Shown here piece by piece: positions 23,033-34,033 of a stretch of DNA of 64,000 bases (its first letter is position 1; each line of letters opens with the position of its first letter). This DNA comes from Psychrobacter okhotskensis (GTDB taxonomy: Bacteria; Pseudomonadota; Gammaproteobacteria; Pseudomonadales; Moraxellaceae), in NCBI RefSeq assembly GCF_013248965.1, contig NZ_JABRVQ010000008.1, positions 62,001 through 126,000 of the forward strand, read 5' to 3'. A program made the translations under genes and the position numbers. Below the pieces are notes generated by a model that saw only the letters and a program-made list of their open reading frames with translations, was not told the origin of the DNA and made no database searches.

Positions 23033-24661
23033 ATGTATAAAGCTAAAACATCCTCGAATATAACGAACGCTTTTTCTTTTAGTAAGTATCAATCTCAAAT
23101 ACTGAATTTTATAGGCTTTATCATATTGTCACTGATAAGCACCTCATCGTTTGCATTTTTAGCAAACCCGGGAGCTAATTGCACGGGAATTACAGGCGCT
23201 TCTCAAGGCAGTTTAACTAGTGCAGATTATACTAAAATCTTATCTTCGTTAGATAGTTTTGTTGATGTGGAAGGTAATGCAGCGGGCAGCATTCCCTTAC
23301 AAGTAAAAATGTCTATAGTAGAATCTAGTGCGAACACAGTAGCTAGAACACTGAGGTCTTCCACAATATCTGACAAAACTATTATTAATGTAACTCGTGA
23401 TTTCCCAAATGCAGCAGCATCTACCGACATCACTTTTGAGTTTCGTAATAGCATTACTCTACAACCGATTTTTCTTCGTAATGTTGCATTGAGTGCTTTT
23501 GATATAGATTATTCAAATACTTATAATACTAGGTTTTATGATTTGATTAGATTTACTGGTATCAATTCAGCTAAGGCAACAATACCTAGCGTACAACAAA
23601 CTGTAGAAGAATCTTTCCTTAATACTAATCAAGAAAGTCTATTTACACGTATTGACTTCAACTGTCCTGCCAACAGTTTAGATAAGAGATGTCAAGGATC
23701 TGTACAATTTCCTGAACCAGTAAGATCTGTGACGATGACTTATACTAATACTGGTTTTAGTAGCACAACAACTACTTCTCTTCAAGAAATAGATTTCAGT
23801 ATAGATAATTACTGCTACGTTCCACAATACATTTTTTCTGGTACGGTATTTGATGATAACGGTGGTATCCCTGCAGGTAGTGCTGATAAAGATAACGCTG
23901 ATATAATGACCCCTAGTAGTGTTTATGCCAATAGATCTAACTACTTCAATGGTCTCTTTAATCCGTCACAAGAGCTGGGTATTAGTGGCAGTACGGTCAG
24001 ACTAGTGAATTGTGCAAAAACTAATACTACTTACGCACAATCAGTTATAGGTAGTGGTGCGACTATCGGTCAGTATCAGTTCAGTGTGCCCATCTCTACC
24101 TTCGACGGTATTACCAACCTATGTATAGTAGAAGAGCGTGCTCCTACTATTTTTCCTTTTTATCCTATTCGAACTACGACTGATAATCTTAATACTGGAT
24201 TTGCAGCCACAAAATATAACTATCCTAATAACAACTTTGGTAGAGTCATCCCTGCTAATGCGGCTTTGGTACTTGAAAAAGAACAAGCACCAAATAATTG
24301 CAATATTACTTCGCTAACAGACTCTTCGCTTAAATACAGTAAATCCCCATTATCGAGTTCAGGTGACAACCCTGATATACGTCCAGGTCAGTGTATTGCT
24401 TACAGAATAACCGCTACCAATCGTGCCAACATGCCCATTGATAATTTTATTATGCAAGACGCTCTACAAAAAAAAGATGCGAATAATGCGACTGTGACCT
24501 CAGTCTTAACCAGTCCTGCCCGTGAAGCAAATGTGTTTAATGATGGTCTGAGTAACGGACAAAATGGGACAATCAAAACCATATCCCAAACGTTGCCAAA
24601 GAGAGACAAACGCTTATTTTATTTCAACACCAAATACGGTAGTACTGTGAATGCTCAGTAG
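23033..24661 (+). CDS. Secreted SdrD-B/DUF11-like surface protein
   Basis: No named family is certain. The start has AGGA eight bases upstream of the ATG (MYKAKTS). The N-terminus has a hydrophobic export signal (FIGFIILSLISTSSFAF) after about 27 polar residues, unusually long for a signal peptide. The middle region includes YIFSGTVFDDNGG...LGISGSTVRLVNC, which resembles the SdrD B/Cna-B-type fold, and a C-terminal DUF11-like module GQCIAYRITATNRANMPIDNF. About ten Cys residues suggest disulfides. The protein ends abruptly with no anchor, and its codon use looks more AT-rich than the housekeeping genes. It is first in the five-gene cluster and has its own terminator. Confidence 0.7.
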   Translation: MYKAKTSSNITNAFSFSKYQSQILNFIGFIILSLISTSSFAFLANPGANCTGITGASQGSLTSADYTKILSSLDSFVDVEGNAAGSIPLQVKMSIVESSANTVARTLRSSTISDKTIINVTRDFPNAAASTDITFEFRNSITLQPIFLRNVALSAFDIDYSNTYNTRFYDLIRFTGINSAKATIPSVQQTVEESFLNTNQESLFTRIDFNCPANSLDKRCQGSVQFPEPVRSVTMTYTNTGFSSTTTTSLQEIDFSIDNYCYVPQYIFSGTVFDDNGGIPAGSADKDNADIMTPSSVYANRSNYFNGLFNPSQELGISGSTVRLVNCAKTNTTYAQSVIGSGATIGQYQFSVPISTFDGITNLCIVEERAPTIFPFYPIRTTTDNLNTGFAATKYNYPNNNFGRVIPANAALVLEKEQAPNNCNITSLTDSSLKYSKSPLSSSGDNPDIRPGQCIAYRITATNRANMPIDNFIMQDALQKKDANNATVTSVLTSPAREANVFNDGLSNGQNGTIKTISQTLPKRDKRLFYFNTKYGSTVNAQ

Positions 24662-24711
24662 CTAATTTCTCTTGTAATTTTAGTAGCTTAATGCAATCAA
24701 CATCTTAATAC

Positions 24712-24743
24712 AAAAAGCCCTATCTCCTCAGATGGGGCTTTTA
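24712..24743 (+). terminator. Terminator after the first surface-cluster gene
   Basis: AAAAGCCC-TATCT / AGATG-GGGCTTTT with a 4-base loop and a T tract forms a strong intrinsic terminator about 50 bases after the stop codon, so the next genes need their own promoter. Confidence 0.85.
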
Positions 24744-24933
24744 CCGTTCGGTAACCTCGAAATACAATTTGTCGTCTTTATGGTGACTCTTTGTCTATTA
24801 ATTGTAAAAATACCTTAAAGACAGCTTCATACCTCTATCAGTAATGCCTATTCATAACAAACAGCAAAAAAGTGAACTGGATTTAGTCAAATTAATAGCG
24901 CACTGATAATAATGATTACAGCAAGGACATAAA

Positions 24934-25398
24934 ATGAAATTTTTAAATACTTTACGTGCCACCCTGTTTATTACCACAATTTCTTTAGGCTTACTAAACA
25001 CAGCATATGCTGAAGAAGCATTAAAAATGGAGTTAACTGCTAATAAAGCCGTCAAAAATGCAGATGGCAAGATCAGTTATGTAGCAGCCAGCACTGCTCC
25101 AACAGGCACTATTATTCAGTACAAAGCGACTTATACCAATACCATTGATCAAAACATAAATGATATCGCAGTTACTTTACCTATTCCTGCAAACATGACG
25201 TTCAACGGCGAGGTTTCACCTGCTAGCGCACAAGCCAGTACTGATGGCAAGAACTATGCTGACATGCCTCTGATGCGCAAAGTGGATGGCAAGGTAGTAA
25301 AAGTACCATTTTCTGAATACCGGAGCCTTCGTTGGAATATCAAACTATTACCAGCCAAAAAGTCTGCCACCGTATCCCTCAATACGATAGTCAACTAG
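24934..25398 (+). CDS. Small exported DUF11-like protein
   Basis: The 154-residue product has a clear signal peptide ending at AYA-EEA and then a single beta-sandwich module. The motif GTIIQYKATYTNTIDQNINDIAVTLPIPANMTF is the DUF11/TIGR01451 pattern of a strand, then Tyr-x-Asn, then an interface sequence. AAGGACATAAA serves as the ribosome site. It sits 44 bases before the next gene and is probably co-transcribed with it. Function unknown; it could be a subunit or chaperone-like partner of the larger DUF11 proteins beside it. Confidence 0.7.
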   Translation: MKFLNTLRATLFITTISLGLLNTAYAEEALKMELTANKAVKNADGKISYVAASTAPTGTIIQYKATYTNTIDQNINDIAVTLPIPANMTFNGEVSPASAQASTDGKNYADMPLMRKVDGKVVKVPFSEYRSLRWNIKLLPAKKSATVSLNTIVN

Positions 25399-25442
25399 TC
25401 CCTACCTGATATTTTTATCAAACCCCCTTGGAGATTTACCGC

Positions 25443-27518
25443 ATGAAATCTAATTTATTCAAATACTCAGTGTTGACTGTCGGTGTCGTTGCCGCTATGG
25501 GCGTGGCTCATGCTGCTCAACAACCTACTGGTGGTACTAGTAATGGCTCTTTCAGTGTAGCTAACCAAGCGTCAGCGTCTTATACCATTGCTGGTAATGA
25601 GAATGCTCCACAGTTAGCGACTTCAAACATCGTCACCATTTCAGTTAGTGAGCAAAGTTCATTTACCTTACTTACAGATAACGTAAATCAGACAATTAAC
25701 CCTAAAGCGAACTCAACCGTTAATTTTACGCATACTCTTACTAACAGTGGTAACGTCGATGATACTTACACTTTAAGACTTACTAATGCTACTAGCGGAG
25801 ATGATTTTGACTACAGCGGCTATAGCGTTACTTACTTATTAAATAACACTGGTACAGCTATCACTGTTCCTATTACTAATGGCGTGGGTACTATCTCTCT
25901 ACCAGCCAAATCGGCTGCTAATATCACTATCGTAGCGACTGCTAATACAGCACGTAATATCGATAAAAACGGTATCCTAACCGTCAGTGCCGAAAGTACT
26001 TATTTAAAGGGCAAAAACGCAGGAACGCCCTCTGCTTATACAGCGTCTAATGTGGATAATGCAAAAACGGTTGCCCCTCTTTATGCCATTACAAAATCCG
26101 CAACGACAAATCTCGGTACTAAAAACCTAGATCTTAATAATCTTAATGCCTTCGTTGATTACACTATTACAATCAAAAACGAAGGTAACCTTGATGGTAA
26201 GGCAATCAGTATCTCAGATGATCTACCATCAGGTTTAGTAGCAATAGCGTCGACAGAAGCTAACTATACAGCTCCTACTGTTACTGCATCTAATGGTAGT
26301 ACAGCAGGTACAGCCAAACTATCAGCTGCTAACAAAACAATAACTGTAGATAGTCAAAACATCAAAGTCGGCGAAACCATCACCGTCACTTTCCGTGCTA
26401 AAAAAGCTGCTAATGCTACCTCAGCAAGTAGCTTTGTAAACTATGCCGTAGTCAAAGACGACACTGCTAACGATAATAATGCGACTACTCCTGACATTAC
26501 TGATAGATCTGATGATGGGACTGAAACTACCTACGAAAATAAAGTTACAGGTGCTTATCTAGGTAAAGATGACAATACTAAAGCGACGGTCACGACAACT
26601 AACCAGACTCGTGCGATTGCTATCACGACAGGTGCGAATAAAGAAGTCGCGTTAAACACTAGTGGTGCTGCTGTCGGAAATACTTATAGCTATACTATTA
26701 CCAACAATGGTACTGACGTTACAGAAGCAGCCACTGCAGGTTCAGTATTATTCTCTGTAAATCCAACCGCTACTGGTACTGCTGGCGTTACTAATAACCC
26801 TAACATTGAGATTGCTCGGGTATTCGTAGATGCTAACGGCGATGGTATCTTTACTGCAGGTGAGACTGTTTTGACCGGTACTCAGATTGGTACGACAGGA
26901 GAGTATACCTATGATCTAAACGCTGCAAAAACCACTGGTTTTGCTCCTGGTGCGGCTAACGCTATTAAAATCGGTGTAGAAGTGGTGACTACTGGTTCTA
27001 ATAGTAATGCTGGTGGCGTAGGTACTAGTGACATAGGTAAATATGAAACTATGACGTTGACTATCGTACCAAAAACTGAGGTCAATGGTACTGCTATTCC
27101 TACTAGCACTACTGAGAACCCATTGTCTACAACTTCTAAAACGACGATGCAAGGTATCAATCTTGTCAAATATCAAATAGCGGCAGATTGTACTACTGCC
27201 ATACCTGCTAATAATGCGACTGACTGGTCGACAGCTACTGCTACCGCTACGGCTGGTCAGTGTATCTTCTATAAGATAGAGGCTGTAAATACTTTTACTA
27301 CAACTGAAATCAGCACTGTAGCCATTACCGATACAATTAGTACTAAGGCGGTCTACCAAACCAACTTCGTTGCCTCACCAACGACGGGTACTAATGGTAC
27401 TAGTACTAATGCTACTACCGGCGTTACTACTGTTCGAGGTAATTTTGCGACTTTAGCATCAGGTGCTACTGCAACCGTTAGATTCTCTGTGAAGCCTTCA
27501 CAGTCAGGTACTAATTAA
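25443..27518 (+). CDS. Exported multi-domain DUF11 repeat protein, Thr/Asn-rich
   Basis: The 691-residue protein has a signal peptide (MKSNLFKYSVLTVGVVAAMGVAHA) and several tandem beta-sandwich modules of the DUF11/TIGR01451 type. One is FVDYTITIKNEGNLDGKAISISDDLPSGL; another is the C-terminal GQCIFYKIEAVNTFTTTEISTVAITDTI. That last module resembles the C-terminal one of the first cluster gene. Composition is rich in Thr, Ala and Asn with few Cys, as in extracellular stalk proteins. There is no lipobox, LPXTG or membrane anchor. The start has GGAG eight bases upstream; a TTG-started frame begins five codons earlier. Confidence 0.72.
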   Translation: MKSNLFKYSVLTVGVVAAMGVAHAAQQPTGGTSNGSFSVANQASASYTIAGNENAPQLATSNIVTISVSEQSSFTLLTDNVNQTINPKANSTVNFTHTLTNSGNVDDTYTLRLTNATSGDDFDYSGYSVTYLLNNTGTAITVPITNGVGTISLPAKSAANITIVATANTARNIDKNGILTVSAESTYLKGKNAGTPSAYTASNVDNAKTVAPLYAITKSATTNLGTKNLDLNNLNAFVDYTITIKNEGNLDGKAISISDDLPSGLVAIASTEANYTAPTVTASNGSTAGTAKLSAANKTITVDSQNIKVGETITVTFRAKKAANATSASSFVNYAVVKDDTANDNNATTPDITDRSDDGTETTYENKVTGAYLGKDDNTKATVTTTNQTRAIAITTGANKEVALNTSGAAVGNTYSYTITNNGTDVTEAATAGSVLFSVNPTATGTAGVTNNPNIEIARVFVDANGDGIFTAGETVLTGTQIGTTGEYTYDLNAAKTTGFAPGAANAIKIGVEVVTTGSNSNAGGVGTSDIGKYETMTLTIVPKTEVNGTAIPTSTTENPLSTTSKTTMQGINLVKYQIAADCTTAIPANNATDWSTATATATAGQCIFYKIEAVNTFTTTEISTVAITDTISTKAVYQTNFVASPTTGTNGTSTNATTGVTTVRGNFATLASGATATVRFSVKPSQSGTN

Positions 27519-27550
27519 TCACCTATTATTAGATATTCTATTGTCTTAAA

Positions 27551-27636
27551 GTCTATAAGCTTCATAAGACGCTTATAGACCCCTCTAGCTTGGGAATACA
27601 TTTTTTATATTACACAAGCTAGAGGTTCAATTTTTT
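27551..27636 (+). terminator. Double hairpin between the DUF11 repeat gene and the giant barrel gene
   Basis: Hairpin 1 is GTCTATAAGC (27551-27560) with GCTTATAGAC (27571-27580), a perfect 10-base stem. Hairpin 2 is CCTCTAGCTTG (27582-27592) with CAAGCTAGAGG (27615-27625), a perfect 11-base stem with a 22-base loop, followed by TTCAATTTTTT. It can act as terminator or partial attenuator before the 5.3-kb gene. Confidence 0.75.
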
Positions 27637-27670
27637 ATTTCACATTGATGTTTTATTGGATAAGCGACTT

Positions 27671-30600
27671 ATGACCCGATCTACAATGACACCGTCTAAT
27701 CGTACCGCATTGTGCACAGCAAAGATTTCTGCGCTGTCAGTGGCAATGTTGCTTATGCAATCAAATATGGCGTTTGCCGCAGTCAATCCACTTGTGCAAA
27801 TCATTGATAATTTAGCAAACGTCGATTATGACGTAGAAGCTGTTAAGCAGCATGGCACTTCAAACCAAGTACAAGTAAAAGTCTCTGCCCTTCCTGAATA
27901 TGGTATTGGCTTAACTAAACAGCCTGTACAGACAGTCATGCCTAACGCTTTAGTTAGTTGGGTCAATGTTCTAAGCAATACCAGCTATAGTAATCAAACG
28001 GTTGAGTTGACGCTAGATGTAGCACCAACGCTATCTAACATCAAAATCTATCAAGATTTGAATAAAAATGGCATCATTGATGGCTCTGACAGCGAAGTTA
28101 TCTTTAATAACTTAAGTGCTCAAATCAAGCTTGGCTATAGCGAAAGCATCCAACTTATCGTACAAGCTTTGTCAGATCCTAACGGCAAAACTGACGATAC
28201 TGCCGAGATTCAACTTGGTGCGATTGTCCTAGAAGACCCTTCTATAACGGCTATTGTTACTGACAAACTCGTTATCGTTGAGCCTGAGATCAATTTCACC
28301 ACACCTAAATTCGATGATAATAAAACCACCTCTCAAATCGATGAAAATGTCTATATCGATGCCAACTACGCGCAATGTAATGTTCAGCTAGATAAGCCCG
28401 ATCAAGTATGGGTGACGATTACTTCTTTATTGACCGGTGATAAGTACTCTCTAAAAGGCATTGAAACTGGTAACAGCACAGGCAAATATCAGCTATCAGC
28501 GCCAACCCAAAGTAACGCCAACCCTATTGATGACAAGATCATCCAAACGTTGGCAAATGACACGTTGACTGCTAGCCTAGATGCTTGTATCGCGCCTTCT
28601 GTCGGTACTGCCGCTGAGCAACTGCCAAGCGAAGGTGACTTCACAGTAAGTATCGACGACTTAGAGACACAAATCAATATCGTTGATGACAACCCAAGCT
28701 TAGTCGTGACCAAAGAAAGTAACGTTAAAACAGCTGATCTTGGTGATTATGTTAGCTATACCATTAATATTACCAACAGCGGCAACTCCACCGCTTATGA
28801 CGTACAACTAAAAGACGCCCTACCACGTGGTTTTGACTACGTCGATGGTAGTGTACGTGTTGGTAAAACTGCAGATATCGATATCAATCAGACACAAACT
28901 ACAGAGTTTAAGGCTGAGGGTAAATATCAGGTTTTAAATTTAGGTAACATGGCGGTTGGCGAAAGTAAAAAAATGACTTATCGCGTGCTAGTAGGTGCTT
29001 CAGCATTAGGTGGTGACGGTATCAACCGTGCAACTGCCGTTGCGAGCAATGAACAAGGTCAAAGCTTAATATCTAGAGAAGCACAGTGGAAAATTGAGGT
29101 TGAGCGCGGCGTCATGAATACCGATGGCATCATCGTCGGTAAGGTATACCACGATATCAACCGTGATGGCATCCAACAAAAAGATGATGGCGAGCTGGGT
29201 GTTGCTGGCGTGCGCATCTATATGGAAAACGGTAACTTTATCGTTACTGACCCTGAAGGTAAGTATAACTTTTATGGCATTAGCGCCAAAACTCACGTAT
29301 TAAAAGTTGACCGCACGACCATTCCTAACGCGACCGAAATGGTTATCCAAAGCAACCGTAACGCGGGTGATGCTGGCAGTCGTTTTGTTGACCTAAAGTA
29401 TGGTGAGCTACATCGTGCTGATTTCGCTATTGTCGGCGGTATGGGCGATAGCACTGAGCGCTTGAACGCAGAGCTGGTTGCTCGTAGCAAATCAGTGAGC
29501 GCTAAGAATGATACGCTTGAACAAGCGGTTAAATCTGAGCTGACCTTAGAGCCTGACTACAATCGTGACTACAATGATAATGTAGATGCCAACGGCTGTA
29601 ACATCAATGGGGATTTAGATCTGGGTAGTAACTGTGATTCGGCTATCGTCAATGAGATGGTCAATCTAGCCACTAACGTGAATATGGAAGTGACTACTAT
29701 TGCGCCTCCTGTTGAAAAAGTGCTAGAAGAATATCTAAAAGAAGTCGCTAATAATAATGTGACCTTTATTAACATGAGCTCAGGTCAACAGCTCAATTCT
29801 TATAAACAATTGGTACAAGTACAAGCGCCACTGGGTAGCAATTTCACGCTATACGCCAATGGCACAGCCGTGTCAGAAGAGAAAATTGGTAAAACAGCGA
29901 AGCAAGAAAAGCAAAATGTGACGGCGTTTGATTATTATGGCGTTGAGCTTAAACGTGGTCGTAACATCCTACATGCTGTAGCGACTGATATTAATGGAAA
30001 AATCATCTCTGAGCAGACGCTCGATGTCTTTACACCAGACAAACTCCAATCTATAGACTATCGCACTCAAGCGCAGTTGGTTGCCGCAGATGGTGTTAGC
30101 GACTATCAAGTGGTTATCAGCTTAAAGGATCGGGATGGTCGTCCTTATATCGCCTCAACACCAATCACTATCGATACCAATATTGGTCGTATTAATCTCA
30201 GCGACACCAGCAAAGATCAAGCCGGCACTCAAGTTATCGTCTCTGGTGGCGAGTTATTGATACCTGTTACTGCCCCAAGTGCGCCAGGCAAAGGTGAACT
30301 AGTCATTGATACTGGTAGCAGCAAGCAATTAGTTCCGCTACAGTTCACCGCTAAACTACGTCCATTGATTGCTGTGGGTATTGTCGAAGGGGCTATATCG
30401 CTTAAAGACTTTGATGGCAGCAATATTACCGATGCTCAAGGGGCTTTTGAGCAAGAATTGAATGAGATTGCTGGCGGTGACGATTATTCAGCCACTGGTC
30501 GTGCTGCGATGTTCCTCAAAGGAAAAGTACGCGGCGACTATCTGCTTACGCTTGCGTATGATAGTGATAAAAAAGGCGAGCGTTTGTTCCGTGATATCGA

Positions 30601-32983
30601 TCCGGGCGAATACTATCCTGTCTATGGCGATTCATCAGCCAAAGGCTTCGATGCGCAGTCTACTAGCAAGCTTTACGTGCGCCTTGATAAAGGTCGCTCG
30701 TTCGCTATGTATGGTGATTTAAAAACGCAAATTGATAACGATGAAGGTATCAAGCTTGGTCAATACAACCGTACATTAACTGGTCTAAAAGCTCAATTTG
30801 AAGATAGCAACACTCGTGTTACTGCCTTTTTAGCAGAGACCAGTACTAGCCAACGTGTAAATGAGACTCGCGGTTTGGGCATTTCAGGCCCATATCCATT
30901 GGCTGAGAACTTCGATGCGGTATTAGAAAACTCTGAAACGGTTGAAGTTATTACTCGTGACGCTAACAACCCTGGGCTTATTATCAATCGTGAGACGCTT
31001 ACTCGCTTTGCTGACTATGAGATTGACCCTATCAGCCGTAGCTTATTCTTGACGGCACCGATTGCTAGTCAAGATATCGAAGGCAACCCTATCTATATCC
31101 GTGTCACTGTAGAAGTTGATGAAGGTGGTGAAGATTATTTGGTCGGTGGTATTGCAGCCAAGCAACAACTGACTGCTAAAGTCGCTGTCGGTGGCAGCTA
31201 TGTCAATAGTGATGACCCACTAAATAAAGAAGAGCTCGCGAGTGTTAACAGCGTTATCAAGTTCAACGATAAGCTAAAACTGGTCGCAGAATACGCCAGA
31301 AACAAAGCAGAAAATCCAAACTTTCAACCAAGTAACCAGATTAATGCGGATCTCTTAGAAGGCCGCGATGCCAAAGGTGATGCGCTACGTATAGAATTAG
31401 ATTACGACAATAAATTAAGCACCCGTGCCAAAGCTTATTATAATGATGCTGAAGAAGGTTTTGTCACTGGCGCATCGCCGCTAACTGCGGGTCGTACTGA
31501 ATCTGGCGTAGAAGTCACTCACACTCTGAATGATAAAAAGACAGCGCTTAAACTTGAAGGCGTACGTACAGAAGATCATACAACAGAGGCCAGTCGCGAA
31601 GGTGTAGAAGCAAGCATTGAGCAGCGTCTCAGTCAAAATATCGTTGGTGAAATTGGGGTGCGCTACTACAAACAAGATGCGACCGCCGCCTCACGCAATA
31701 CCCAAGCAGCCACTGATGTGCTAGATGTTACTGATGATACAATATTCAATGATGACATCATTAATCAATCAGCGCTTAATGGCGTCAGTAACGCTGACAA
31801 AGACATCGAAGGCACCACTGCCCGCGCCCGTCTGACAGCGCGTTTGCCAAAACTAAATAACTCTTTGGTATTTGCCGAATATGAGCAAGATATTGACAAT
31901 AGCGAGCGTAATGCAACCTCTATCGGTGGCGAGACACCACTAGGTAGCTTAGGTCGCTTATATGCGCGTCATGACTTAATTAATAGCTTATCAGGTAGCT
32001 ACGGTTTAGATGATACCGAAGAACGTCAGCGTACCGTCGTAGGCTTCGATGCTACTTATATGAAAGACGGTAAAGTTTACAGCGAATACCGTATGCGTGA
32101 TGCGATCAGTGCCCGCGAAGCAGAAGCCGCTATCGGTCTAAAAAACAAATGGTATGTGCAAGAAGGTCTGACCTTAAGCACACTATTTGAGCGTGTCGAG
32201 TCTCTAGAAGGTGATGAAGACAGTACCGCAACTGCAGCGGGCGTCGGTGTTGAATACCTAGCCAAAGAAAACTACAAAGCTTCAGGGCGTCTAGAAAAAC
32301 GCTGGGGCGACACCAGTGATACCCTACTCGGTAGCGCTGGCATTGCTTATCGTTACACCGATGACATTACTCTATTAGCAAAAGATATCTACTCGCAAGT
32401 GGATTATGACGATGGTCATCGCACTATCAATCGTTTCCAGCTTGGTGCCGCTTACCGTGATTATGATAGCAATCAGCTCGATATGCTTGCCAAGCTTGAG
32501 TACCGTTTAGATGATAACGCTACCGGTAACGATCCCTATCAAAAAGATGCGATTGTCTGGTCATGGAGCGGCAACTATCATCCGACGCGCCCATTAACGT
32601 TATCAGGTCGCTATGCGGGTAAATATACAGAATATGATGCTGATAATATCGTAAGCGATAACACGGCTCACGCGGTCTATGCACGCGGCTTATATGACAT
32701 TAGCGAGCGTTGGGATATTGGTCTACAAGCAGGTACTTACTGGAATAAACAAGCGGATGACTTGGCTTATCTGGTTGGTGCAGAAGTTGGCTACAGCCCG
32801 ATGACCAACCTGTGGTTATCACTCGGCTACAACTTTATGGGCTTTGAAGATGAAGACATCGCTTATGATGACAGCACGCAAGAAGGCGCTTATTTTAGAC
32901 TACGCTTCAAATTTGATGAAGATTTATTCAAACGTGAAGATCCACGCAAAAATAAACGTTTAACCAGCGATTCTACGTTATAA
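27671..32983 (+). CDS. Giant DUF11/SdrD-B/outer-membrane beta-barrel protein
   Basis: A 1770-residue exported protein. After the signal sequence (to about residue 37) come a first Ig-like region (about 50-185) and a DUF11 module near 344-480 (YVSYTINITNSGNSTAYDVQLKDALPRGF). Next is an SdrD-B-like domain near 484-570 (GKVYHDINRDGIQQKDDGELG...GVRIYMENGNF) and an Ig-like (Big-type) region near 793-890. From about residue 895 to the end, alternating polar/hydrophobic strands with aromatic girdles (YPVYGDSSAKGF, GRSFAMYGDL) indicate an outer-membrane barrel; AYFRLRFKFDEDLF is the likely last strand, followed by a 15-residue polar tail. The ATG at 27671 was chosen over a TTG five codons upstream. 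Function is unknown; a platform for the neighbouring DUF11 proteins is an inference. Confidence 0.75.
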   Translation: MTRSTMTPSNRTALCTAKISALSVAMLLMQSNMAFAAVNPLVQIIDNLANVDYDVEAVKQHGTSNQVQVKVSALPEYGIGLTKQPVQTVMPNALVSWVNVLSNTSYSNQTVELTLDVAPTLSNIKIYQDLNKNGIIDGSDSEVIFNNLSAQIKLGYSESIQLIVQALSDPNGKTDDTAEIQLGAIVLEDPSITAIVTDKLVIVEPEINFTTPKFDDNKTTSQIDENVYIDANYAQCNVQLDKPDQVWVTITSLLTGDKYSLKGIETGNSTGKYQLSAPTQSNANPIDDKIIQTLANDTLTASLDACIAPSVGTAAEQLPSEGDFTVSIDDLETQINIVDDNPSLVVTKESNVKTADLGDYVSYTINITNSGNSTAYDVQLKDALPRGFDYVDGSVRVGKTADIDINQTQTTEFKAEGKYQVLNLGNMAVGESKKMTYRVLVGASALGGDGINRATAVASNEQGQSLISREAQWKIEVERGVMNTDGIIVGKVYHDINRDGIQQKDDGELGVAGVRIYMENGNFIVTDPEGKYNFYGISAKTHVLKVDRTTIPNATEMVIQSNRNAGDAGSRFVDLKYGELHRADFAIVGGMGDSTERLNAELVARSKSVSAKNDTLEQAVKSELTLEPDYNRDYNDNVDANGCNINGDLDLGSNCDSAIVNEMVNLATNVNMEVTTIAPPVEKVLEEYLKEVANNNVTFINMSSGQQLNSYKQLVQVQAPLGSNFTLYANGTAVSEEKIGKTAKQEKQNVTAFDYYGVELKRGRNILHAVATDINGKIISEQTLDVFTPDKLQSIDYRTQAQLVAADGVSDYQVVISLKDRDGRPYIASTPITIDTNIGRINLSDTSKDQAGTQVIVSGGELLIPVTAPSAPGKGELVIDTGSSKQLVPLQFTAKLRPLIAVGIVEGAISLKDFDGSNITDAQGAFEQELNEIAGGDDYSATGRAAMFLKGKVRGDYLLTLAYDSDKKGERLFRDIDPGEYYPVYGDSSAKGFDAQSTSKLYVRLDKGRSFAMYGDLKTQIDNDEGIKLGQYNRTLTGLKAQFEDSNTRVTAFLAETSTSQRVNETRGLGISGPYPLAENFDAVLENSETVEVITRDANNPGLIINRETLTRFADYEIDPISRSLFLTAPIASQDIEGNPIYIRVTVEVDEGGEDYLVGGIAAKQQLTAKVAVGGSYVNSDDPLNKEELASVNSVIKFNDKLKLVAEYARNKAENPNFQPSNQINADLLEGRDAKGDALRIELDYDNKLSTRAKAYYNDAEEGFVTGASPLTAGRTESGVEVTHTLNDKKTALKLEGVRTEDHTTEASREGVEASIEQRLSQNIVGEIGVRYYKQDATAASRNTQAATDVLDVTDDTIFNDDIINQSALNGVSNADKDIEGTTARARLTARLPKLNNSLVFAEYEQDIDNSERNATSIGGETPLGSLGRLYARHDLINSLSGSYGLDDTEERQRTVVGFDATYMKDGKVYSEYRMRDAISAREAEAAIGLKNKWYVQEGLTLSTLFERVESLEGDEDSTATAAGVGVEYLAKENYKASGRLEKRWGDTSDTLLGSAGIAYRYTDDITLLAKDIYSQVDYDDGHRTINRFQLGAAYRDYDSNQLDMLAKLEYRLDDNATGNDPYQKDAIVWSWSGNYHPTRPLTLSGRYAGKYTEYDADNIVSDNTAHAVYARGLYDISERWDIGLQAGTYWNKQADDLAYLVGAEVGYSPMTNLWLSLGYNFMGFEDEDIAYDDSTQEGAYFRLRFKFDEDLFKREDPRKNKRLTSDSTL

Positions 32984-33085
32984 TTTGCTCGCCGATTTAC
33001 AGTCCTTTATCGATTAAGGGCTTATAAAGTCAGTGCTAATAAAAACCAATATCCACACTCATTACCTTAATACAAGGTTCGCATT

Positions 33086-33862
33086 ATGTTGTACTCTGCG
33101 ATCAAAGCTGTAACCAATAAACAGCCTATCTATACTACGCTCGCAGCAGTCTTGCTCCTGACGACTGCTTCATCAGCGCTGGCAGTAGCCAACGAGGCTC
33201 CAGCTATTACTGTACAAGCTTCTAACTATTGCCATAGTGACTTGCAGACACAACCCTCTGCTTATAAATACCAAAGTACGCAGCAACGAGCGCTGAGTTG
33301 CCTGTTGACGCAACTACAAGCTTATCAGCAAAAAGACATGACAGCGCAGCAGCAGTATCTAGCGTATAAAGCGCAAGCGTGGATTAACTATGCTATTCAT
33401 CAAGACAGTATTAATAGCCGCTCACCGGCTGGTACATACGCAGCGCAGTCGGCAGAGACGATATTGCAAGCGCTAAAAAATGATACCGCACAAGACATAA
33501 GCCTATATCAGGATATCCCGTCTGACTCTGCTTTGATGCGTCCTGATCTTTGGGCAACTTTGAGTGCTTTAAAAGACAGCGACGGTATTGGTACTGCGCC
33601 ACGTGAAATGGCATTTAGTGAAGTGGCTTTAATATGGGCGGCGACCAATCAATGTGAGCGTGGTTCAAGAGAGTCAGGCAGTCACTTCCGCATGGCAGAT
33701 CGTTGGCTAGAGCAAGCGCGTGAGGCCTATGTGAACGCCCATGATTCGCAAGCTAACGTCGCCTTAGAGAATCTGATCGTGCGTTATTACAAGCAATATG
33801 CCCCTTTGGATCCGAGTGAGGATGTTTGCCAAGGGCAAAAACTGTTTTCTATCGCTCAATAA
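33086..33862 (+). CDS. Exported alpha-helical protein, last gene of the surface cluster
   Basis: The 258-residue product has a signal peptide ending near residue 33 (ASSALA) and a mature part rich in Gln and Ala, with helix-forming stretches such as LLTQLQAYQQKDMTAQQQYLAYKAQAWINYAIHQ described here only in outline. Four Cys residues in the mature part could form disulfides. It resembles helical repeat (TPR-like) periplasmic proteins but no repeat register is certain. It starts 102 bases after the giant gene with an AAGG ribosome site and ends before a bidirectional terminator. I do not recognise a named family. Confidence 0.6.
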   Translation: MLYSAIKAVTNKQPIYTTLAAVLLLTTASSALAVANEAPAITVQASNYCHSDLQTQPSAYKYQSTQQRALSCLLTQLQAYQQKDMTAQQQYLAYKAQAWINYAIHQDSINSRSPAGTYAAQSAETILQALKNDTAQDISLYQDIPSDSALMRPDLWATLSALKDSDGIGTAPREMAFSEVALIWAATNQCERGSRESGSHFRMADRWLEQAREAYVNAHDSQANVALENLIVRYYKQYAPLDPSEDVCQGQKLFSIAQ

Positions 33863-34000: not shown

Positions 34001-34033
34001 AAAAAAGCCGACTCATAAATAGTCGGCTTTTTT
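34001..34033. terminator. Bidirectional terminator between surface cluster and TetR gene
   Basis: AAAAAAGCCGACT (34001-34013) pairs exactly with AGTCGGCTTTTTT (34021-34033) around a 7-base loop. It serves both convergent genes. Confidence 0.93.

Follow-up and report, generated by a model that had tools for sequence, protein, structure and literature searches.

In type IX secretion the translocon, SprA, is a very large outer-membrane barrel, and PorE is its OmpA-type partner. Here we describe a five-gene cluster of Psychrobacter okhotskensis in which a gene for a giant predicted outer-membrane barrel stands beside genes whose products share a C-terminal end-tag; it has the look of a conserved apparatus by which adhesin-like proteins are moved to, or held on, the cell surface, with the tagged proteins as its clients. 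The cluster, whose genes we call p1 to p5, lies in a stretch of 64,000 nucleotides (the window; RefSeq assembly GCF_013248965.1, 3.38 Mb; contig NZ_JABRVQ010000008.1, positions 62,001 to 126,000, forward strand) and had been proposed as a surface system in an earlier note on this DNA. Labels of the form L### and G### denote loci and genomes and are internal to this analysis.

The signal of the type IX system is a conserved C-terminal beta-sandwich (PMC4804311, excerpt). The likeness to our locus lies in the giant barrel, the C-terminal beta-sandwich on varied cargo, the OmpA-type partner and the adhesin cargo, whereas the module of p1 to p3 is of the DUF11 type and the cluster occurs in Pseudomonadota, with a relative in Cyanobacteriota. 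Throughout, the absence of known systems was read from domain-library matches of the five window proteins at an expectation value (E) of at most 1. At that threshold p1 to p3 matched no type A or type B sorting-domain model of type IX secretion (the PorK/L/M/N motor genes were not searched genome-wide) and no SprA model was found; nor was there a SprA chain in a profile search of the PDB at E ≤ 10, or among the best 50 Foldseek rows for a p4 model of moderate quality. We take type IX secretion as the closest working analogy, one that is unrelated by the sequence tests made.

DUF11 now bears the name CLIPPER, given after a crystal structure revealed an isopeptide bond within the domain, which is usually found as a stalk repeat in the middle of a protein (PMC12617251, excerpt); in our cluster, in contrast to that published arrangement, the module sits at the terminus and goes with a barrel gene. 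The p4 module matches the CLIPPER adhesin structure PDB 9IFR by sequence (E 3.7e-4) with the aligned Lys/Asp/Asn kept, the Asp of 9IFR falling, when counted on the alignment, one residue off the number given in that paper. The same structure is the best PDB match (E 0.058) of the profile of C-terminal modules described below. Chaperone-usher pili likewise combine Ig-like subunits and an outer-membrane platform in one operon, and no usher, chaperone or pilin family was among the matches of the five window proteins. In type 11 secretion (Slam/DUF560), for which cargo has been described from Psychrobacter, an outer-membrane protein also exports co-encoded surface proteins, but the cargo ends in an eight-stranded barrel domain (PMC12282271, excerpt) and not in a DUF11 module, and p4 had no DUF560/Slam match. 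As for type 5 and intimin-invasin systems, no autotransporter, TpsB or inverse-autotransporter match was found, and there were only weak matches to Invasin_D3 (Ig-like). No test places the cluster in a known secretion family, and a literature search, with subscription papers and preprints largely outside it, found no description of the gene set.

A conserved gene unit

Five open reading frames (ORFs) on one strand lie where the earlier note had put a five-gene cluster, between aceE and tetR, which are each on the opposite strand and were both named from the sequence. Conservation of the set was surveyed in 79 named Moraxellaceae loci, 77 of them with full-length p4 (two broken assemblies, L149 and L157, were left out). 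Gene labels come from profile matches at E < 1e-4; since the profile for p3 picks up further DUF11 proteins as well, "p3" in locus counts means a DUF11 protein of the p3 kind. p5 lies downstream of p4 in 70/77 loci, and p2 and p3 are the next two same-strand genes upstream of p4 in 65 of 70, a count from which seven further loci with less than 3.5 kb upstream were left out. The five exceptions are L174, with p3 in two ORFs, and four loci without p3 (L113, L119, L131 and L143). The co-occurrence on which the earlier note had made its idea depend is thus borne out across genomes, and the genes are for the most part not found separately, apart from those four loci. The flanking genes are aceE and tetR/endonuclease in most Psychrobacter loci and different ones in Alkanindiges and Acinetobacter, which argues that the arrangement is conserved in its own right. 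The five genes are a conserved unit.

The four p3-less loci, all of Psychrobacter, retain p4 and p5 with no adjoining p1 or p3, and L113 also lacks p2; decay, or reliance on unlinked clients alone, is possible. Additional p2-p3 cassettes stand upstream of a single p4 at L116, L117, L120 and L140. p4 matches were found in 94/199 genomes of the family and, counted by hand from the listing, in 58/66 of the genus, three of the latter being weak or broken (G096, G148, G192). The source genome has a single p4, that of the window, whose nearest relatives are from Psychrobacter.

A C-terminal module shared by p1, p2 and p3

One profile, A2, finds the C-terminal DUF11-type module (CTD) of p1, p2 and p3. 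It was grown from the tails of p1, p3 and neighbouring genes (the first 60 of 64 selected tails) and has the consensus PG.C..Y.I.A.N.G ... V.I.D ... F.V.I. Counting a module as terminal when it ends at most 15 residues from the C-terminus, we found a terminal CTD at the named loci in 48/50 p1, 77/78 p2 and 99/102 p3, compared with 1/84 p4 (a fragment from broken L149), 0/72 p5, 0/117 aceE, tetR and endonuclease ORFs and 0/389 others (the last two together 0/506). This amounts to 224/230 complete p1-p3 ORFs against 1/662 other complete ORFs, a contrast that exceeds chance; the p1-p3 labels come from profiles that contain the CTD and are hence not independent of it, but the terminal position is. 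The named set was used alone, as the pooled set merges overlapping series (L036-L075 and L096-L174) and holds many genomes twice; its counts were 72/74 p1, 118/119 p2, 146/150 p3, 1/125 p4, 0/106 p5, 0/187 aceE/tetR/endonuclease and 2/495 others, both of these being DUF11 genes beside the p4 of L075. The resemblance between the ends of p1 and p3 that had been noticed before is therefore real, and wider than claimed, as p2 shares it. The C-terminal DUF11-type module of the three proteins is a common terminal feature, newly recognised here.

The CTD might instead be no more than the last repeat of a stalk, with no sorting role, in a cluster of surface or S-layer-like proteins and a large porin. 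DUF11 is indeed a common stalk repeat, and internal copies occur in p3 and in longer relatives. This explanation nevertheless appears very unlikely to us, as the module sits at the extreme end of 224/230 p1-p3 and in 10/11 of the unlinked loci described below, against 2/19 chosen matches from p4-negative genomes.

Unlinked tagged proteins and co-occurrence with p4

The family search also placed strong CTD matches far from p4. Of 18 loci fetched, 11 (L211-L217, L220-L223) are clearly unlinked: either p4 is more than 100 kb away on that contig, or the locus has a context of its own on a different contig. An ORF ends 1-8 residues past the CTD in 10 of these; at L221 the script found no match in a 4622-aa ORF, though the family search puts a CTD at its end. 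Five other loci (L218, L219, L224, L225, L226) have ORFs ending 0-9 residues past the CTD but, given contig breaks, may belong to a p4 locus, and L227 and L228 are extended p4 loci. One of the unlinked tagged proteins, 3677 aa long, contains 16 SpaA_3 repeats.

Eight Psychrobacter genomes (L211-L217, L220) share an unlinked p1-like gene with its own type of N-terminal domain and the same neighbours, encoding ~412-415 and 463-467 aa; it looks broken in L217 and L220, and the single copy scanned (L211) gave neither a Pfam nor an NCBIfam match. The source genome itself encodes an unlinked protein of 341 aa (L210; G000:C11:29223-29513) with a Thr/Val-rich body that ends in a p2-like CTD.

Within the family, no p4-negative genome has a CTD match at E ≤ 1e-8 (the best is 1.8e-8, in G067), whereas 88/89 strong-p4 genomes do, and 83/89 at 1e-13, p4's own DUF11 module scoring 1.2e-11 with the profile. 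The 89 exclude G039, G084, G096, G148 and G192; the lone exception, G072 (59% complete), does not appear among the listed genomes and was perhaps not sampled. In the class set of 339, a CTD match at E ≤ 1e-13 occurs in 24 genomes other than that of the window, all of them p4-positive. Rows of A2 came from 15 of these 24, and the other nine are 9/9 p4-positive against 54/369 overall, some of them being of the same genus as row donors. In the nine held-out genomes 9/11 CTD matches finish no more than 7 residues short of the stop codon.

The large protein p4

p4 consists, in order, of a DUF11 module, an SdrD_B module, two Ig-like modules and a strand-rich region. A structural model of moderate quality predicts 41 strands over residues 1005-1751, 37 of them 8 residues or longer, interspersed with short helices (p4 residue = model residue + 589; model residues 311-415 are poor). 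Outer-membrane Pfam families are matched weakly (DUF2490 in 17/35 rows, Phenol_MetA_deg in 17/35, OMP_b-brl in 2/35), and the last strand is one we take to resemble an outer-membrane beta-signal. The long barrel-like end reported earlier thus agrees with the family matches and the predicted strands, as far as a moderate model goes. A PDB profile search with the p4 profile (A1) gave a single weak match, to a beta-galactosidase, across the Ig-like part.

OmpA domains bind peptidoglycan. One lies between the DUF11 module and the barrel in 8/10 distant p4 scanned (not in L175 or L186), and the DUF11-side part of p4 is therefore most likely periplasmic. A crude OmpA motif pattern had found nothing in p4-size ORFs; Pfam afterwards found the domain. 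Among p5 relatives, 7/9 scanned carry an OmpA domain, including one Psychrobacter lineage (L127), and L062 and L146 do not; in most relatives scanned the domain is in either p5 or p4. Given the p5 lengths, loss of the domain from most Psychrobacter p5 is the simplest reading.

The earlier note had the barrel anchor or display the DUF11 proteins. In a strict form of that idea p4 would be an anchor only, and p1 and p3 would be exported otherwise and use their C-terminal modules to bind it, building up an adhesive layer or a stalk. Such an arrangement would account for the conserved order and the shared module; DUF11 modules are known from stalks (PMC12617251, excerpt), and type B C-terminal-domain proteins of type IX secretion associate with PorP-like proteins for anchorage (PMC9143113, excerpt). 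Yet a barrel of ~40 strands would be far bigger than an anchor requires, and another export route common to all clients would be needed, none being recognised among the neighbours. We regard anchoring alone as unlikely, if still a serious contender. Display by the barrel fits the co-occurrence, the gene order, the strand-rich p4 model and the adhesin-like p1, but the DUF11 proteins are probably more than passive stalks held by it, as the shared CTD and the unlinked tagged proteins point to sorting or export.

Variable putative clients beside conserved putative machinery

Pairwise identities were computed from 55 Psychrobacter loci, of which 44 were complete and 38 remained after dereplication (30-38 per gene). 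Median identity is 0.35 for p1, 0.34 for p3, 0.53 for p5, 0.70 for p2 and 0.77 for p4, and 0.85, 0.86 and 0.95 for the flanking tetR, endonuclease and aceE. Along p4 it rises from 0.62 (first 560 residues) through 0.77 (560-920) to 0.85 (920 to the end). In the alignment, p1 has several unrelated N-terminal domains on a steadier middle and tail, and SpaA_3 occurs in 3/4 other p1 scanned. The AlphaFold2 model of the window p1 (predicted local distance difference test, pLDDT, 82; predicted template-modelling score, pTM, 0.68) shows three parts, an N-terminal domain rich in strands followed by a middle and a terminal module; a PDB profile search with the p1 profile (A3) gave one chance-level match. 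From its sequence p1 looks like an adhesin. The pattern is one of machinery (p2, p4, p5) and variable clients (p1, p3 and the proteins of unlinked loci) that share one C-terminal address. That p1 and p3 are hypervariable next to a conserved p4 suggests that selection acts on what is exposed outside the cell.

The Lys/Asp/Asn triad of the p4 module is kept in 41/41 aligned p4, and that of p1 at K 72/75, D 72/75 and N 74/75, duplicates counted (423/483/539 in the window p1, numbered from TTG 23012). Judged by eye, the module of the window p3 has no Asn at the triad position. An isopeptide bond in the p4 and p1 modules is a prediction from these aligned residues; in the window p1 it would join Lys423 and Asn539.

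Identities of p1 and p3 remain correlated once relatedness of p4 is controlled for (partial Mantel r 0.25, p 0.0005), as could be expected if p3 and p2 polymerised through their Ig-like modules, with p4 as an usher-like assembly and exit platform and p1 as the tip. The small single-module p2, the repeated p2-p3 cassettes and the exchanged N-terminal domain of p1 would also suit such an assembly. It is, however, quite unlikely, since no usher or pilus-chaperone family is among the matches and large single-chain proteins, such as the one of 3677 aa, bear the same tag.

Distant relatives

The A1 profile was built from 34 of 40 fetched p4 plus that of the window; near-identical sequences and L075, which is longer, were excluded. 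It matched 54/369 genomes of the class and 61/398 of the phylum, figures that overstate the spread of the barrel because some matches (G258, G207 and nine genomes of family f215) cover the Ig-like part only. At 20 distant loci, from 19 genomes, a p2 profile match stands beside the p4 relative in 14, and at least one ORF ends in a CTD in 17; the remaining three are L177 (a short contig), L178 (where the p4 ORF is unresolved in the ORF list) and L179.

Proposed mechanism

We hypothesize that p4 is an outer-membrane translocon or display platform for CTD-tagged fibrillar adhesins, a reading in which translocation is the conjectural part and which we judge to stand evenly between right and wrong. 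A sorting or export relation is suggested by the C-terminal module that p1 to p3 have in common, by the presence of this module on unlinked proteins and by the predicted periplasmic N-terminal half of p4. If p4 is such a platform, p1 and p3 would reach the periplasm by the general export route, with their C-terminal DUF11-type module as an address tag. p4 would form a very wide outer-membrane barrel, and its N-terminal half (DUF11, SdrD_B and Ig-like modules), lying in the periplasm, would receive or guide the tagged proteins. p5, or the OmpA domain fused into p4 in relatives, would tie the machine to peptidoglycan, the working of a p5 that lacks the domain, like that of the window, being conjectural. 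p2, which is the tag module alone and is conserved like the machinery, may be an accessory: a tag-like cap, an adaptor or a chaperone. The products would be adhesins or fibres in which covalently stabilised modules of the Ig/prealbumin type make up the stalk and the N-terminal domain can be exchanged, and part of the clients would be encoded elsewhere in the genome.

Several points weigh against this proposal. Export through p4 would be a new proposal, and no energy source or inner-membrane partner was found, although no search was aimed at them. The p4 model (pLDDT 66, pTM 0.43) gives a strand count and not barrel closure; hydrophobicity alternation was significant (p < 0.05) in only 4/56 strands, and the best 50 Foldseek rows were mostly GH2 enzymes and tandem Ig domains, with no barrel. 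The window p5 has no OmpA domain (PF00691). p4 occurs without p3 in the four loci named above, without a tagged neighbour at L178 and L179, and on a Paracoccaceae plasmid where both neighbours lack a CTD or p2 profile match. The co-occurrence of CTD and p4 is partly circular, because p4's DUF11 module matches the CTD profile, and it is weakened further in that linkage makes genes share their gains and losses. Two p4-negative genomes have CTD matches just above 1e-13 (G534, 4.5e-13; G251, 9.2e-13). In the position test, the top match was internal at L241 and L242, from held-out p4 genomes, and C-terminal at two control loci (L256, L261); the 19 control matches, from 17 p4-negative genomes, were hand-picked, not random, and lower-scoring than the positives.

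More tentatively, the cluster may represent a separate, undescribed outer-membrane secretion system of diderm bacteria: a peptidoglycan-tethered translocon of ~40 strands that recognises a DUF11-type C-terminal tag and passes folded or large isopeptide-stabilised adhesins. It would have arisen independently of type IX secretion and would occur in many Pseudomonadota as well as in one or more cyanobacteria. This reading is possible, and rather less probable than the platform role of p4 as such. The platform reading, if right, would provide a surface route for DUF11/SpaA-type adhesins of Gram-negative bacteria and a C-terminal tag readable from genomes from which client lists could be drawn; it would also add a second example in which a huge barrel goes together with a beta-sandwich signal at the C-terminus.

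Features of the locus and plasmid-borne relatives

The features of the cluster are collected in Table 1. Export signals, which had been claimed for all five proteins, are borne out on all five N-termini, as judged by eye. The claim of DUF11/SdrD-B modules in four proteins holds above cutoff for p3 and p4 (DUF11, PF01345, E 2.9e-6 and 6.5e-14; SdrD_B in p4), and is weak for p1 and p2, where DUF11 stays below cutoff (NCBIfam DUF11 repeat, E 3.5e-4 and 1.5e-3) and p1 has no SdrD_B match; the domain scan gave no DUF11 match in the window p5. A promoter scan was no better than chance (32 found against 28.5 expected), and a terminator scan gave 11 sites against 8.8 expected, so the hairpin after p5 is weak evidence.

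Table 1. Genes, modules and other features of the cluster (window positions).
Feature	Position	Strand	Description or basis
p1	23033..24661	+	putative exported adhesin, 542 aa from likely ATG 23033; 549 aa from TTG 23012
p1 N-terminal strand-rich domain, strain-variable	23297..23854	+	model strands 89-274; unrelated N-termini in alignment
p1 middle module, resembling SdrD_B on visual inspection only (YIFSGTVFDDNGG)	23990..24295	+	alignment and model; without Pfam match
p1 CTD	24353..24646	+	CTD profile E 3.9e-19
p2	24934..25398	+	154 aa; signal peptide and CTD-type module, nothing more; conserved
p2 CTD	25060..25377	+	CTD profile E 1.7e-6
p3	25428..27518	+	696 aa; exported DUF11 protein, hypervariable; internal ATG 25443
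p3 internal DUF11 module	26139..26483	+	Pfam
p3 CTD	27183..27503	+	CTD profile E 4.7e-19
p4	27656..32983	+	giant outer-membrane protein (predicted), 1775 aa
p4 DUF11 module, predicted periplasmic	28700..29050	+	isopeptide-type triad K353/D387/N457
p4 SdrD_B module	29141..29335	+	Pfam E 4.4e-7
p4 two Ig-like modules, Big_1/Invasin_D3 type	29804..30349	+	profile matches and model
p4 predicted barrel region	30668..32908	+	41 strands, 37 of ≥8 residues; final aromatic strand GAYFRLRFKF
p5	33086..33862	+	exported protein, 258 aa; without the C-terminal OmpA domain that most scanned relatives carry
Terminator-like hairpin, 13 pairs	34001..34033	.	between p5 and convergent tetR; weak

Relatives of the system also occur on plasmids. 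A 302-kb mobilizable plasmid of Acinetobacter haemolyticus (L264; CP085288.1:184546-208467) carries it between arsenic-resistance genes and a transposase, with p2, p4, OmpA and tagged DUF11 genes; its p3 region is annotated as several short ORFs. Plasmid pA of the cyanobacterium Kovacikia minuta (L266; NZ_CP083583.1) has a p3-like ORF, recognised by eye, and a p2-like ORF ending in a CTD. There p4 is split into two ORFs, one module gene and one barrel gene, which suggests that the two halves of p4 may act as separate chains. Elsewhere, an open frame of 11,777 aa (G309:C2:458974-462381) contains both a CTD-like DUF11 match and a stretch resembling the p4 barrel.

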